Of a stretch of DNA of 64,000 nt, positions 33,109 through 41,675 are shown one piece after another. Both the position numbers and the translations under genes were made by a program. The notes below the pieces were generated by a model. That model was not told the DNA's origin and did not search any database. It saw only the letters and a list, made by a program, of their open reading frames with translations. The stretch comes from Antennarius striatus (lineage: Eukaryota; Chordata; Actinopteri; Lophiiformes; Antennariidae), in assembly GCF_040054535.1 (NCBI RefSeq), contig NC_090782.1:19065001-19129000 (forward strand). Reading direction: 5' to 3'. Position 1 is the stretch's first letter. The number at the start of each line of letters is the position of its first letter.

Positions 33109-36100
33109 CTATGTCTGTGCGCCACAGGTGGTAGTGCTGCTGACAGCAGCTACCTGAGGGAAATAACCACCGGTCAGCCTTGCTGTATCTGTAAACTGAG
33201 ATGAACAAGTGTCTGCTGTGTCCCGAGTCATTAATCCACCCTGCTGTGAATACAAAGAGGGACAGTTTGCTTCTACATTGTCTTCAGTTAATGCACTCTC
33301 CAGAAGAAAGCCTCCAACAGGGACATTTGTTGTTTCATACGTTTTAGGCCACACAAGGCTGCCAGCAGACGCGAGTGTCAGTCCAAAAGGTGAATCAGAA
33401 AGGTCCACCTCCACATTAGGTAAAAATCCTCCAAGTAATCCTCGAAACACATCTGGATATCTGTCTTCCTTCTTTGGTGGCATCTCCCTCTGTTCTTCTT
33501 CTGTCACCATCTCCTCTTCTTCACGTGAATCCAACATGACAATCTGGGGTTTGTAGCCAACATGTTCCACCTGGCTGTCACCGAGCAACCCAGGATCTGA
33601 CATTAGCAAAGCTGTCTCTGATGTGGGTTGTCCTGATCCAACCTGGGACATTTTAGCCTGGATGCTAGGATACATGTCATTCCTCTCCTCTGGGGAGATC
33701 AAAGTGATGAGGGACAGCGGTGGGTCGCTGTCGATGGAGGAGAACATCGGTTCATTTCCATTCTCCTGGAGAAGCAAAACCAGTTATATTTCAGAAGAGG
33801 AGTGCATAGCAGATATGTTGGAAAGACGTGTTTAAATTCACATTAAGAGACTGATAGCAGTCAGTTCAATCAGTGACGTGCCTACACTTTTTTTGATTAT
33901 GTCATGTTATAAATATGAGCACCTTCAATACCTTCAGTAATCTGATGGCAAGACTGTTTCCTGGTTTTGGTAAGTTTTCAACAAGCCAGGCGGGTCTCCG
34001 GGATCTACATGTCTGCTTGATCCTGACACAGAAAAAGAACGTCTATTTTTTTCTGGTATTGATAATGAATGATTGTCAGAGTCAGTAGTGAACTTTACAA
34101 AGTTTAGAGCGTGTGGTACAATCACAAAGTCGCATCCCTTGAAGCAGCCTTGACCACATGAGTTATGATTTCTGCTGCACATGTCACACTTGAAGCTTTT
34201 TGTTCATGTGTTCCTGTTCTGGTGAGTGATTTTAGAAAAATAACCACAGCAGCATCCATCCTGATTATGAATAAAACAAAACCTATCTATTCAACATCAT
34301 CGGAGAATAATGTTGAATAAAAGTCATGCTTATTATTTGAATAATTTCAATATTAAAGACACATATGAAAGAACAAATGTTAAATAATACCTTTTCTTGA
34401 TACAACTGCAGCACATCAGATTAGCTATGACTGCTATAAAGATGATGAAGATGAAAACGATCACAACTACCAGGCCGACTAGAGCAGACAAGAAAGGGAA
34501 ATATATCATTTTAATGAAGTGGTTATCAGAGGGTTAAAAAAGTTTATGGACAAATGCTTTCACACAACAGGTGTAATAAAGACAATTTTTCAAAAGTTTT
34601 TGATGGGAGCGTGCACTGGCTGCACGAGACTGACCCGCAGGCGTTGCAGGTTGCGAGGAGATTCGGTTCCCCCGGGGACCCTCTCCTTCTGAGGTGGACG
34701 CCGTCATCTGCAGAGCCAGAGATGCCTCTGGACACTCCAACCACTTCTGTCTGGGGCCGGAGCCGGAGACTGTCACTAGAGACAAGCAGTCACGGTGTCT
34801 TTGTTCAGGCAGCACAATTTGTACATGTTTTGCTTTTTATATATCAGAATTCTTGATCTTTGAAACAAGAAAGAAAAAGAAAATCTTCATATCCACACAC
34901 ACCCCCAAAAATGAGGTCAAGCATGGAGCCCCAATCAGGAATGTGGTTTGAAAAAAAGAAATCGGAACATATCTACAGATACAGTATGTCTAAGGGGCAT
35001 ATTATCAATTCTGTATGCTTTATGTGATCTGATCTGAGTGGATTTTGTGGTGAAATTGTTTTGTCAAATATTTATGCACAAAGCTGACTCTCGTTCTGAT
35101 TTGGAGCTAGTGTTTTTTTCAGAGTGGTGCTGCTGTATCTCTACCTTCAGCTGATCACCTGATTCTGAACATCCATTATGTTGTAATCGAATAAAAGGAG
35201 GAGATACACAACATATTCATATTAACTTTATATTTAATGCACTGGAGAAAGCATCCAGTTTATTGTAACTGGGGTTCTAAATAGTATTTTGAAGCAGGCT
35301 GATTACTAACCGCCTTACGCTTGCATGAGTGCATGGAGCCACATGGTTTCCTGTTCGTGGTCAAAACCAGTTCCAGAAAATTCTTTGGTTAACTGAAGAC
35401 AAAATGATAACCATCAGTATTTTAAACACCAACTTTTTTCTCTACAAAACATCTGCAATTACCAGTAAGTCAAACAAAAGTGGCATAAGTTAAATTGTGA
35501 TGATGTATTTTCTTCCACATAACATCTTCTATTCTCCTCTGGCTCTGTTTTTATTGTTTTGACTTTTAGAATAAGTAATTTATTACAAAAAATTTGATTC
35601 ATACCACATTCCTGGAAGGTCAAGGTGAAATCCCTGCATATTCACTAAACGTTTGTGGGAGGGGATTATCAATGCTGGTTGCACACTTTCCACTATCTCA
35701 CTGTATATGCCTTTTTCTAACACCCTGAATATGTATACTACTGCATATAGTGATTTCCCACATGTGTGCTTATGCATAATGCTGCAGTACATAATCACAA
35801 ACAACACAGTTTGGTTAAAAGAGTCCCTCAAGAACAGGAAACAGCTCACAGCAGCAACCTGCTTCCTTTAAAACCTGTAACTCAAAGCAAGGTGTAATTC
35901 TATTTTGAAAGAGTGAGCTCACCAAAACAACAAAAACATTCTCTCCTGCCCTTCACAGTGTCAAATAGAGAATTAGTTTATGTTCTAAGAATATGGAAAA
36001 AAGGATCAAACAATTTACTAAATCAAATTTTATGCTGAAACTATCAATTATCTAATTATCATATTGCTTCAAAGTGCCTCAAAGTCCACAGTAACATTGT

Positions 36101-39100: not shown

Positions 39101-41675
39101 GCTGAAATAGTGATATAGTGATAATGGTGGTGATTCCATTACAGAAACAGAAATAGCTTTTTCTTTGAAAGCAAAGTCAGATGGGTCAACTTCCTTTGAT
39201 GGAACAGATTACTAATTTCTTGAGAAAATACTTGGTAATTCAGATCTTTATAAAAAAGCCTGTGCGTGCAAAGACATTAAGATTGCAGAAAGAACTTGCC
39301 TATGTCCTTCACACAGAGAACGACTGGATCCGACTGTGATGCTCCAAAGTGGTTACGAGCAGTGATAACCAGCAAGTATTTGGTATCTTCATCCATCTGG
39401 GCTCGTTGTATGGTGATTTTATCATCATCCTGGATCTGACCTAAATGTACCGCGGTCTCATTTTCTCTGGTAATGAAAAAAAAAGTGCTGTTGTGTGAGA
39501 TGTATAAATGTGATATGTGTAATGTGTGAGAAAACATAGCACATAATGCACCATGTTTACCTGTTGACAGAAATGTTGTAGACAGTTGAGATGTGTGTTT
39601 CTTGTCCTTTCTCCCATGTGCAGTCTATTAAATCTGAGCTCTTTGGTGTTTCACAGATAATATTTTCAGGTTTATCTGGAGGAACTTGGAGAGGAAAGAA
39701 TGGCAAACCAAAGAGAAGTCAAATAAGCAAGTCAGAGCAAAGCTTTTTTTTTTTTTACCTGTCAAGAACCAGAAAACTAGCCATGTGTTTTTGGCACATG
39801 GATGGAAACTCATTTCCATCCATATGATGAAAAAATACAGTTAAAACAACTTAATGAGTTTTATCAAAATAGAAAACATCACTTTTGGTAGCTCTTACTT
39901 TCTCAGTGTTCTTAGTTCTGTGTGTTTCAGCTACAGTTGATAATGGATACTACATAAATCTGAGTTGAGCTCTCTGTTTCTCTTGTGGAGCTCAGACTGA
40001 AGACGCTTCAAAAATGACATTCACTCTGGCCACTGCGCAGAATGTTCATAGCAAACATGGCATTGCTTAAAATGGCTCAAACCACTTGATAATCTAGCAC
40101 AGATCTACTCAAGGTAACATTAATACACCACTGACACACTTTACCCACAGTATTTTACTACTGATCAAACCATCAGTATTGATGCAATGGGTTTCCATGT
40201 TTTTATTTAACCAACTCTTTGATGATATTTTGTATTTCCACAAGGTTTTCTTTTCTACTTATTCATAATTTTACTGTAGGTATCAGAGCCAAATGCACAT
40301 ACGGCCAGCATGTAGATCAAGTCCATCGATAACATCTTTCTCTTGCCCTCTCTGCCGCACACAGCGTATTGTAAATTCTGCCGTCTGGACGTTCAGCAAA
40401 CTGAAAATCTCTGTAGGGGAGCTGATTTTCTTTTGAGCCACTGTAAGCCACATTTTATCTTTCCACTCCAGAGATATTTTGGACCTGGAAGACAATCACG
40501 ATTGCACCTGAACCACATTGAGTAACACTTTCAACATCTCTTAAAGGAGAAATATATGAGGATTGGGTAATATGTAGCATCAAACACCAATCTGAAATGT
40601 AAAGATGTAAAAACGAAAAGTACAGAATGAAGGCATCCTGATTATGTTCTGGTAGCTATGACAACATGCGGTCCATGTCCTAGTGAGAGGACATGGATCA
40701 CAATACCGGTTCATACTTGAGTAGCAGAGCCTATTTACTGTAAATGACTAAATCTAGGTGCTGTAAGAACATATATATTATATTGCAGCATATATCTACC
40801 ATTCCTGTGGTTGGCATTTTGTGATGTTGCAGTAGACTGTCAGGTTTGATCCCAAGATGAATGGTGAAGATGGTTGTGTGGTGACAGAACCACAAAAAAT
40901 TGCACAACAACCTGTCCAGAAAAAATAGTCAAAAATTCAGTCCCATCCAAGGCCGAGGAATTTTTGTTTTTATAAGTGCAATGATACACATTTATGTCTT
41001 GATCCCTCTTTACTGATGTGTTCAGATAAATCATTCTTTTCTCTTTTCCTTTACTTATTTATAGATAGATGGATAGATAGATAGATAGATAGATAGATAG
41101 ATAGATAGATAGATAGATAGATAGATAGATAGATAGATAGATAGATAGATAGATAGATAGATAGATAGATAGATAGATAGATAGATAGATAGATAGATAG
41201 ATAGATAGATAGATAGATAGATAGATAGATAGATAGATAGATAGATAGATAGATAGATAGATAGATAGATACTTTATTAATCCCGGAGGAAATTGCATAA
41301 AGCCACTGCTCAGGCATTAAATAACAAATAATACTGGATAAACACCAGGAGAAAAGGAAACATTGACATCACAGGACATACCACAAGACATACACTACAC
41401 TAACAGACAGACACATGCAGCACTAACAGGACTTATATACTAAACTATAACTAAAATATAAACAGTATAAAATTTAAAAATATTACAGTATTAAAATATA
41501 AACAGTATAAAATAAAATCTAAACAGTATAAAATTGAATTAAAATATAAAACAGTATAAAAAATAAATAAATTATATATATATATATATACAACATAGAT
41601 AGATAGATACTCACAGTTTACGATGAAACTAATAAATATAATAACAAATCTCCAGACGTTTGAGTAAGGACTCAT
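33109..41675 (-). CDS. il23r: Interleukin-23 receptor
   Basis: IL-23-specific receptor chain signalling through JAK2/STAT3. Sixteen exons join in phase: 41615-41675, 40800-40911, 40303-40484, 39561-39675, 39300-39466, 38845-38981, 38127-38340, 37946-38028, 37646-37853, 37359-37562, 36774-36872, 36465-36620, 34635-34775, 34391-34478, 33932-34022, 33109-33765 (904 residues). Order: signal peptide, Ig-like domain (LTVYCNITKC), cytokine-binding module with DIVIP as in human and a loose WSxWS (CSKWSQS), three further FNIII domains, TM helix (GLVVVIVFIFIIFIAVIANL), box 1 region WLVENLPKPGNS, and a tail with YKPQ (about 757), YSQQ (about 858) and YFPQ (about 887). Human IL23R has WLYEDIPNMKNS and GYKPQI at matching places. 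The intron after exon 39300-39466 has a GC donor. It lies beside il12rb2 in the same orientation, as in human. Confidence 0.9.
36629..36706. repeat. (CA)n/(CACG)n microsatellite
   Basis: Mixed CA and CGCA repeats in the il23r intron, starting about 9 bp upstream (in the gene's sense) of the acceptor of the exon at 36465-36620. Confidence 0.9.
38390..38830. repeat. Probable dispersed repeat in il23r intron
   Basis: Contains several GGTCAAAG/TTTGATC and CTTGACCT words, an imperfect GAACGAAC...ACAAACGAAC array near 38755-38800, and ends AATCACAATACATCACCGGTGATG with a palindromic CATCACCGGTGATG. The composition differs from the surrounding intron and resembles a dispersed element. I cannot name the family. 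Confidence 0.4.
41062..41320. repeat. (GATA)n microsatellite joined to a retroposon tail
   Basis: About 210 bp of GATA repeats run into TACTTTATTAATCCCGGAGG and AAATTGC, a typical fish retroposon 3'-end motif, inside the first il23r intron. Confidence 0.9.

Follow-up and report, generated by a model that had tools for sequence, protein, structure and literature searches.

Human IL23R is reported to be without three membrane-proximal fibronectin type III (FNIII) domains (PMC1963337, PMC7600943), as a preliminary description of the DNA analyzed here had stated, and the question that this locus raises is whether a fish IL23R carries these domains and which of the two forms came first. The locus lies in a 64,000-nucleotide stretch of Antennarius striatus contig NC_090782.1 (positions 19,065,001 to 19,129,000; hereafter the window), where a minus-strand gene at 41675-33109 is, judged from its sequence, il23r, the fish orthologue of IL23R. 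We consider it highly probable that this gene represents the orthologue in a tall, gp130-like form, descended from a six-module ancestor that was duplicated in tandem, and that the receptor was shortened toward mammals.

The gene and its three additional modules

Rebuilt at the outer coordinates of the preliminary description (33109-41675), il23r has 16 coding exons on the minus strand, whose spliced frame encodes 907 residues and holds a single stop, at its end. Every splice site is AG/GT but the donor that follows exon 5, which is GC. The protein reads in order as a signal peptide, an immunoglobulin (Ig) domain, a two-domain cytokine-binding module, three FNIII modules, a transmembrane helix and, last, a tail some 250 residues long. 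Exon 1 (41615-41675) supplies the ATG and the hydrophobic N-terminus of the signal peptide. The N-terminal Ig-like domain D1, placed by alignment to D1 of the solved IL23R and by the D1 scores given below, is encoded by exons 2-3 (40911-40800, 40484-40303); the first cytokine-binding FNIII domain D2, with its C-x10-CTW motif and PDB alignment, by exons 4-5 (39684-39561, 39466-39300), the latter followed by the GC donor; and the second, D3, placed by the spliced model and the position of a degenerate WSXWS motif (CSKWS), by exons 6-7 (38981-38845, 38340-38127). The membrane-proximal modules follow on exons 8-9 (module 4; 38028-37946, 37853-37646), 10-11 (module 5; 37562-37359, 36872-36774) and 12-13 (module 6; 36620-36465, 34775-34635). 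Exon 14 (34391-34478) contains the transmembrane helix, exon 15 (33932-34022) the juxtamembrane tail, PAWLVENLPKPGNS, counterpart of human PKWLYEDIPNMKNS (PMC7444064), and exon 16 (33109-33765) the remaining tail with YKPQI (Y760) and YFPQ (Y890), collinear with human Y484 and Y611. Intron 1 holds a long tetranucleotide microsatellite (CTAT on the minus strand; 41072-41271). Just downstream of the gene lies a minus-strand tRNA call by ARAGORN (32800-32871) whose four-base anticodon is odd, and which is probably a tRNA-derived short interspersed element.

The three two-exon FNIII modules between the cytokine-binding module and the membrane, as the preliminary description had drawn them, are borne out by splice sites, phases, and PDB and Pfam matches. 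All six exons lie where they had been placed, between AG acceptors and GT donors, and together they form 891 bases of uninterrupted reading frame (a probability of about 1e-6 if only composition is considered). The exon pairs measure 291, 303 and 297 bases and each is a phase 1-1 unit, so that loss or transfer of any one module would leave the frame intact. Searched against PDB, the protein of exons 8-13 matches an IL12RB2 chain (E 1.4e-20) and LIFR (E 8e-17), and its local scores against six relatives stand 23.8-41.6 standard deviations above shuffles (300 each). Pfam fn3 matches the il23r protein in four stretches (E 2.6e-22), the strongest being residues 444-523, in module 5. The form of this il23r is not that of the short mammalian-type stalk without membrane-proximal FNIII domains; three FNIII modules stand there instead. 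In fish the short form is no precondition for IL23R, as zebrafish il-23r is reported to have such domains too (PMC1963337).

The same module layout had been claimed for the neighboring gene, il12rb2, which indeed has three two-exon modules in the same phases. When the modules are compared one by one, modules 4, 5 and 6 of il23r each find their best match in the module of the same position in 5/5 relatives (fish il12rb2, IL12RB2, gp130, LIFR and OSMR), that is, in 15/15 comparisons. For fish il12rb2 the figure is 12/15. The three exceptions are LIFR modules 5 and 6 and OSMR module 6, and for LIFR module 6 and OSMR module 6 the sequences compared were truncated fragments. Modules 4-6 of il23r thus match FNIII 4-6 of IL12RB2, LIFR, OSMR and gp130 position by position, as apparent homologues.

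Identity of the gene

The assignment to il23r, proposed in the preliminary description, is carried by synteny and the signaling tail, with the binding module consistent. In the window the order and strands are serbp1 (+), il12rb2 (-), il23r (-), the same as those of Serbp1, Il12rb2 and Il23r on mouse chromosome 6, where a few predicted loci are reported between the last two (PMC3038982). From zebrafish to human il23r and il12rb2 are described as adjacent nearly always, perhaps through an ancient duplication (PMC12162339). The serbp1 gene is recognized by five exon pieces, spanning 12027-18588 on the plus strand from first to last, gene borders not being drawn (Pfam HABP4_PAI-RBP1, E 1.8e-10; IHABP4_N, E 1.6e-19). 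The exon model of il12rb2 (21626-30046, minus strand) has 15 coding exons and 809 residues. Its Ig domain occupies one exon (two in il23r), followed by two-exon D2 and D3, the three FNIII modules phased as in il23r, a helix and a tail. That tail scores highest with human IL12RB2 (71; 0/300 shuffles as high) and second with IL23R (66; 1/300).

Among nine human tails taken from PMC7444064, some of them incomplete, the il23r tail has its top raw score with IL23R (64; 0/300 shuffles as high). It does not resemble an IL12RB2-type tail (44; 21/300), and gp130, LIFR and OSMR give 42-43. The STAT3 motifs are found at positions 109 (YKPQ) and 239 (YFPQ) of the tail stretch compared, as against 108 and 235 in human IL23R, where Y484 and Y611 are the reported STAT3 sites (PMC7600943); by alignment, the fish tail keeps both human STAT3 docking tyrosines in place. 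The preliminary description had also relied on three short markers. YKPQI held up in part, being found in IL23R only among the nine human tails; YKPQ alone was discarded as a mark, since LIFR has YKPQM. DIVIP was abandoned, as the IL12RB2 chain 8odz_D carries DIVIPLPPW. Box 1 proved a weak marker: in mammalian IL-23R the Jak2 site is reported to be unusual, and box 1 and box 2 to be missing (PMC7600943). A PDB search with the tail gave no match up to E 10.

Residues 24-333 of il23r, the binding module D1-D3, match IL23R first in PDB (70.2-71.8 bits), in four rows that look like one protein and are not four independent matches. IL12RB2 chains (62.1 and 55.9 bits), LIFR (46.3) and gp130 (41.0) follow. 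By domain, D1 scores 66 with IL23R as against 54 and 48 with two IL12RB2 chains, and D2 gives a near tie (112 with IL23R, 107 and 103 with the IL12RB2 chains). Neither the tail nor the binding module is closest to gp130, LIFR or OSMR, all of which score below IL23R (for the binding module, gp130 and LIFR were compared). D2 of il23r contains the C-x9/10-C-x-W motif of class I cytokine receptor group 2, CETPKSSDLIDCTW. The second D2 cysteine pair is absent, there being one further cysteine only; this pair is lacking in human IL23R and the LIFR fragment as well, and is present in gp130 and IL12RB2. At the end of D3, CSKWS stands at residue 318, and the WSXWS motif of human IL23R is likewise degenerate, WQPWS (PMC3446948).

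Age of the modules

We ran approximately unbiased (AU) topology tests on modules 4-6 (12 runs) and on the binding module, taken by itself or together with the modules (10 runs). For modules 4-6, the topology in which IL23R lost its FNIII modules fell below 0.05 in 0/12 runs (0.33-0.45 with seven taxa, and best with five), and the pairing of il23r with the mammalian IL12RB2 chain did so in 6/12. For the binding module, independent duplications in fish and mammals were rejected at 0.05 in 10/10 tests, which supports a tandem origin of IL23R and IL12RB2 before the fish-mammal split. Simple orthology was never rejected there (AU 0.136-0.36). The binding-module tree was nevertheless dropped as proof of orthology because the best tree is not that of simple orthology.

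The strongest of the opposing accounts, though an improbable one, is that IL23R was ancestrally short and that fish gained the three FNIII modules from il12rb2, by copying or unequal crossover. In its favor, the two genes stand side by side with identical module exon layout and phases. Against it, the fish module sets of il23r and il12rb2 are 25% identical, and the IL12RB2 chain 8odz_D is at least as close to each of them (27 and 26%). A sister pairing of the fish copies was rejected at 0.05 in 9/12 tests (AU range 0.007-0.087), while the other three gave 0.076, 0.077 and 0.087. These results lean toward old modules and against a recent copy from fish il12rb2. Taken as leanings and not as proof, with few and divergent sequences behind them, the topology tests favor an old tall receptor that was later shortened.

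Several observations weigh against the reading of the gene as an IL23R orthologue in an ancestrally tall form. The trees are weak, the binding module being represented by eight sequences (21-30% identity between receptor types) and the modules by seven (21-32%), and the sequences compared are those of mammals and of this window's genes, thus of one fish. The best seven-taxon place for the il23r modules is beside LIFR and OSMR, in 10/10 runs. The best named binding-module tree pairs fish il12rb2 with IL23R and il23r with IL12RB2, again in 10/10, and one test did not reject trees placing il23r with gp130 (0.097) or apart from the IL12R group (0.26). D3 of il23r scores higher with IL12RB2 (50, 57) than with IL23R (42), and D1-D3 of fish il12rb2 too matches IL23R first, so the PDB ranking is not decisive. 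In the tail, IL27RA is second by raw score (57; 0/300 shuffles) yet reaches a z of 5.1, as against 4.5 for IL23R, and the SHP2 motif YEDI (human Y397) is not kept, VENL standing there. Finally, none of 10 comparisons between the mammalian stalk and the first exon of an FN4 module reached significance; the idea that the stalk exon is a visible remnant of that exon was given up, 30 to 499 of 500 shuffles scoring as high.

It is conceivable, though unlikely, that the tandem pair is mosaic in this fish, with the binding half of il12rb2 IL23R-like and its modules 4-6 and tail IL12RB2-like. D1-D3 of fish il12rb2 scores 75.1 bits with IL23R in PDB as against 36.1 and 29.7 with IL12RB2, and its D2, like that of IL23R, does not have the second cysteine pair seen in the chains of IL12RB2 and gp130. 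Were this true, gene conversion or exchange between the neighbors would have uncoupled the cytokine bound from the STAT activated.

It is very unlikely that the main product of the gene is a soluble decoy, or that the FNIII exons are skipped. Zebrafish il-23r has been described without a transmembrane domain (PMC1963337), sheep IL23R splice forms are predicted to be without one (PMC4748472), and unspliced reading beyond exon 13 meets a stop only after about 30 further residues in frame. Against this, exons 14-16 are intact and in frame, the STAT3 tyrosines are conserved, and exon 14 encodes a strong hydrophobic helix: the most hydrophobic 19-residue stretch of the protein begins within it, at residues 629-630. 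Least credible of all is that the gene encodes another gp130-type receptor (like LIFR, OSMR, gp130 or IL27RA), a reading for which the LIFR/OSMR placement of the modules, the tail z to IL27RA, the YKPQ of LIFR and the unrejected gp130 tree could be cited, and against which stand the synteny with il12rb2 and serbp1, the top D1-D3 score with IL23R, the two collinear STAT3 motifs common to il23r and IL23R, the rejection of modules paired with gp130 at 0.05 in 6/10 tests and, for IL27RA, a tail without YxxQ and the reported absence of an Ig domain (PMC1963337).

A possible role for receptor height

By analogy with known relatives, IL-23 would bind the Ig domain and a partner chain. The three FNIII modules may determine how far above the membrane the binding module stands and bring the two chains close to each other at their membrane ends, which would allow JAK2 and the partner kinase to act on each other and STAT3 to be recruited. 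In mammals an unstructured stalk would do the spacing in place of the FNIII modules; the mammalian stalk is reported to replace three FNIII domains and to work as a spacer, its deletion yielding active homodimers (PMC7600943). We infer that the fish modules do the job of the mammalian stalk, with a gp130-like geometry.

The corresponding history would begin with tandem duplication of a six-module receptor into IL23R and IL12RB2, before fish and mammals parted. The line to mammals would later have swapped the frame-neutral six FNIII exons of IL23R for one short frame-neutral exon. In sheep, exon 8 of IL23R is described as 90 bp long, encoding 30 residues of the stalk stretch and skipped in one variant (PMC4748472). 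Fish il23r has six exons where sheep has this one.

Other features of the window

Cytochrome P450 exons (Pfam p450) form two sets on the minus strand, at 43342-46446 and 52256-53297, and are apparently tandem CYP2-like genes (subfamily named by eye). On the plus strand, a long open frame at 59315-60604 with a Galactosyl_T domain (Pfam, E 1e-39) is probably a beta-1,3-glycosyltransferase. Tyrosine kinase exons at 2243-3516 (Pfam) resemble a discoidin domain receptor and short-chain dehydrogenase exons at 6445-8187 (Pfam) resemble hsd17b7, both names given by eye and both on the plus strand. Two overlapping open frames at 51121-51579, also on the plus strand, look by eye like a retroelement integrase fragment and have no Pfam match. 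At gathering thresholds Rfam found no RNA family in the window.

Comparison with known receptors

That fish IL23R has extra FNIII domains is already known. Liongue and Ward described zebrafish il-23r in 2007, with FNIII domains like those of IL-12R beta 2, and noted that mammalian IL-23R is without them and that the topology differs between teleosts and tetrapods (PMC1963337). What is added here is of modest value: a fish IL23R whose membrane helix and signaling tail are intact, homology of the modules by position, and tests that disfavor recent copying from il12rb2. Among the titles and abstract openings listed from the open-access literature, none states that a fish IL23R has a transmembrane domain or describes bird or amphibian IL23R architecture, which does not prove that no such report exists. 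IL-23R is of interest as a drug target, and its mammalian form is odd in the family, being short and having an unstructured stalk whose removal is reported to make the receptor self-active (PMC7600943). A fish form that has three FNIII modules as well as a membrane anchor and the two STAT3 sites suggests a derived simplification in the short stalk, and it offers a natural comparison for receptor height as a control of signaling.

The closest known system is zebrafish il-23r, likewise a fish IL23R in synteny with il-12r beta 2 and with membrane-proximal FNIII domains. The zebrafish gene is described without a transmembrane domain, whereas the gene here has a transmembrane exon and a signaling tail; its intact anchor qualifies the 2007 statement on fish IL-23R. 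Mammalian IL23R shares the Ig domain and two-domain binding module, the degenerate WSXWS, the lack of a complete second D2 cysteine pair, the YKPQ and YFPQ STAT3 sites and the gene order, but has the unstructured stalk instead of three FNIII modules and, in human, the SHP2 motif YEDI that is missing from fish il23r. IL12RB2 (8odz_D and the fish neighbor) likewise has an Ig domain, a binding module and three FNIII modules, whose exon phases in the fish neighbor are those of il23r; the human IL12RB2 tail differs in its YLPS STAT4 site and KLTLD C-terminus, neither of which fish il23r has. LIFR, OSMR and gp130 share three FNIII modules in the same order and YxxQ motifs in the tail, but score lower with il23r than IL23R does (LIFR and gp130 in the binding module, all three in the tail), and LIFR is further reported to have a second binding module, unlike il23r (PMC1963337).

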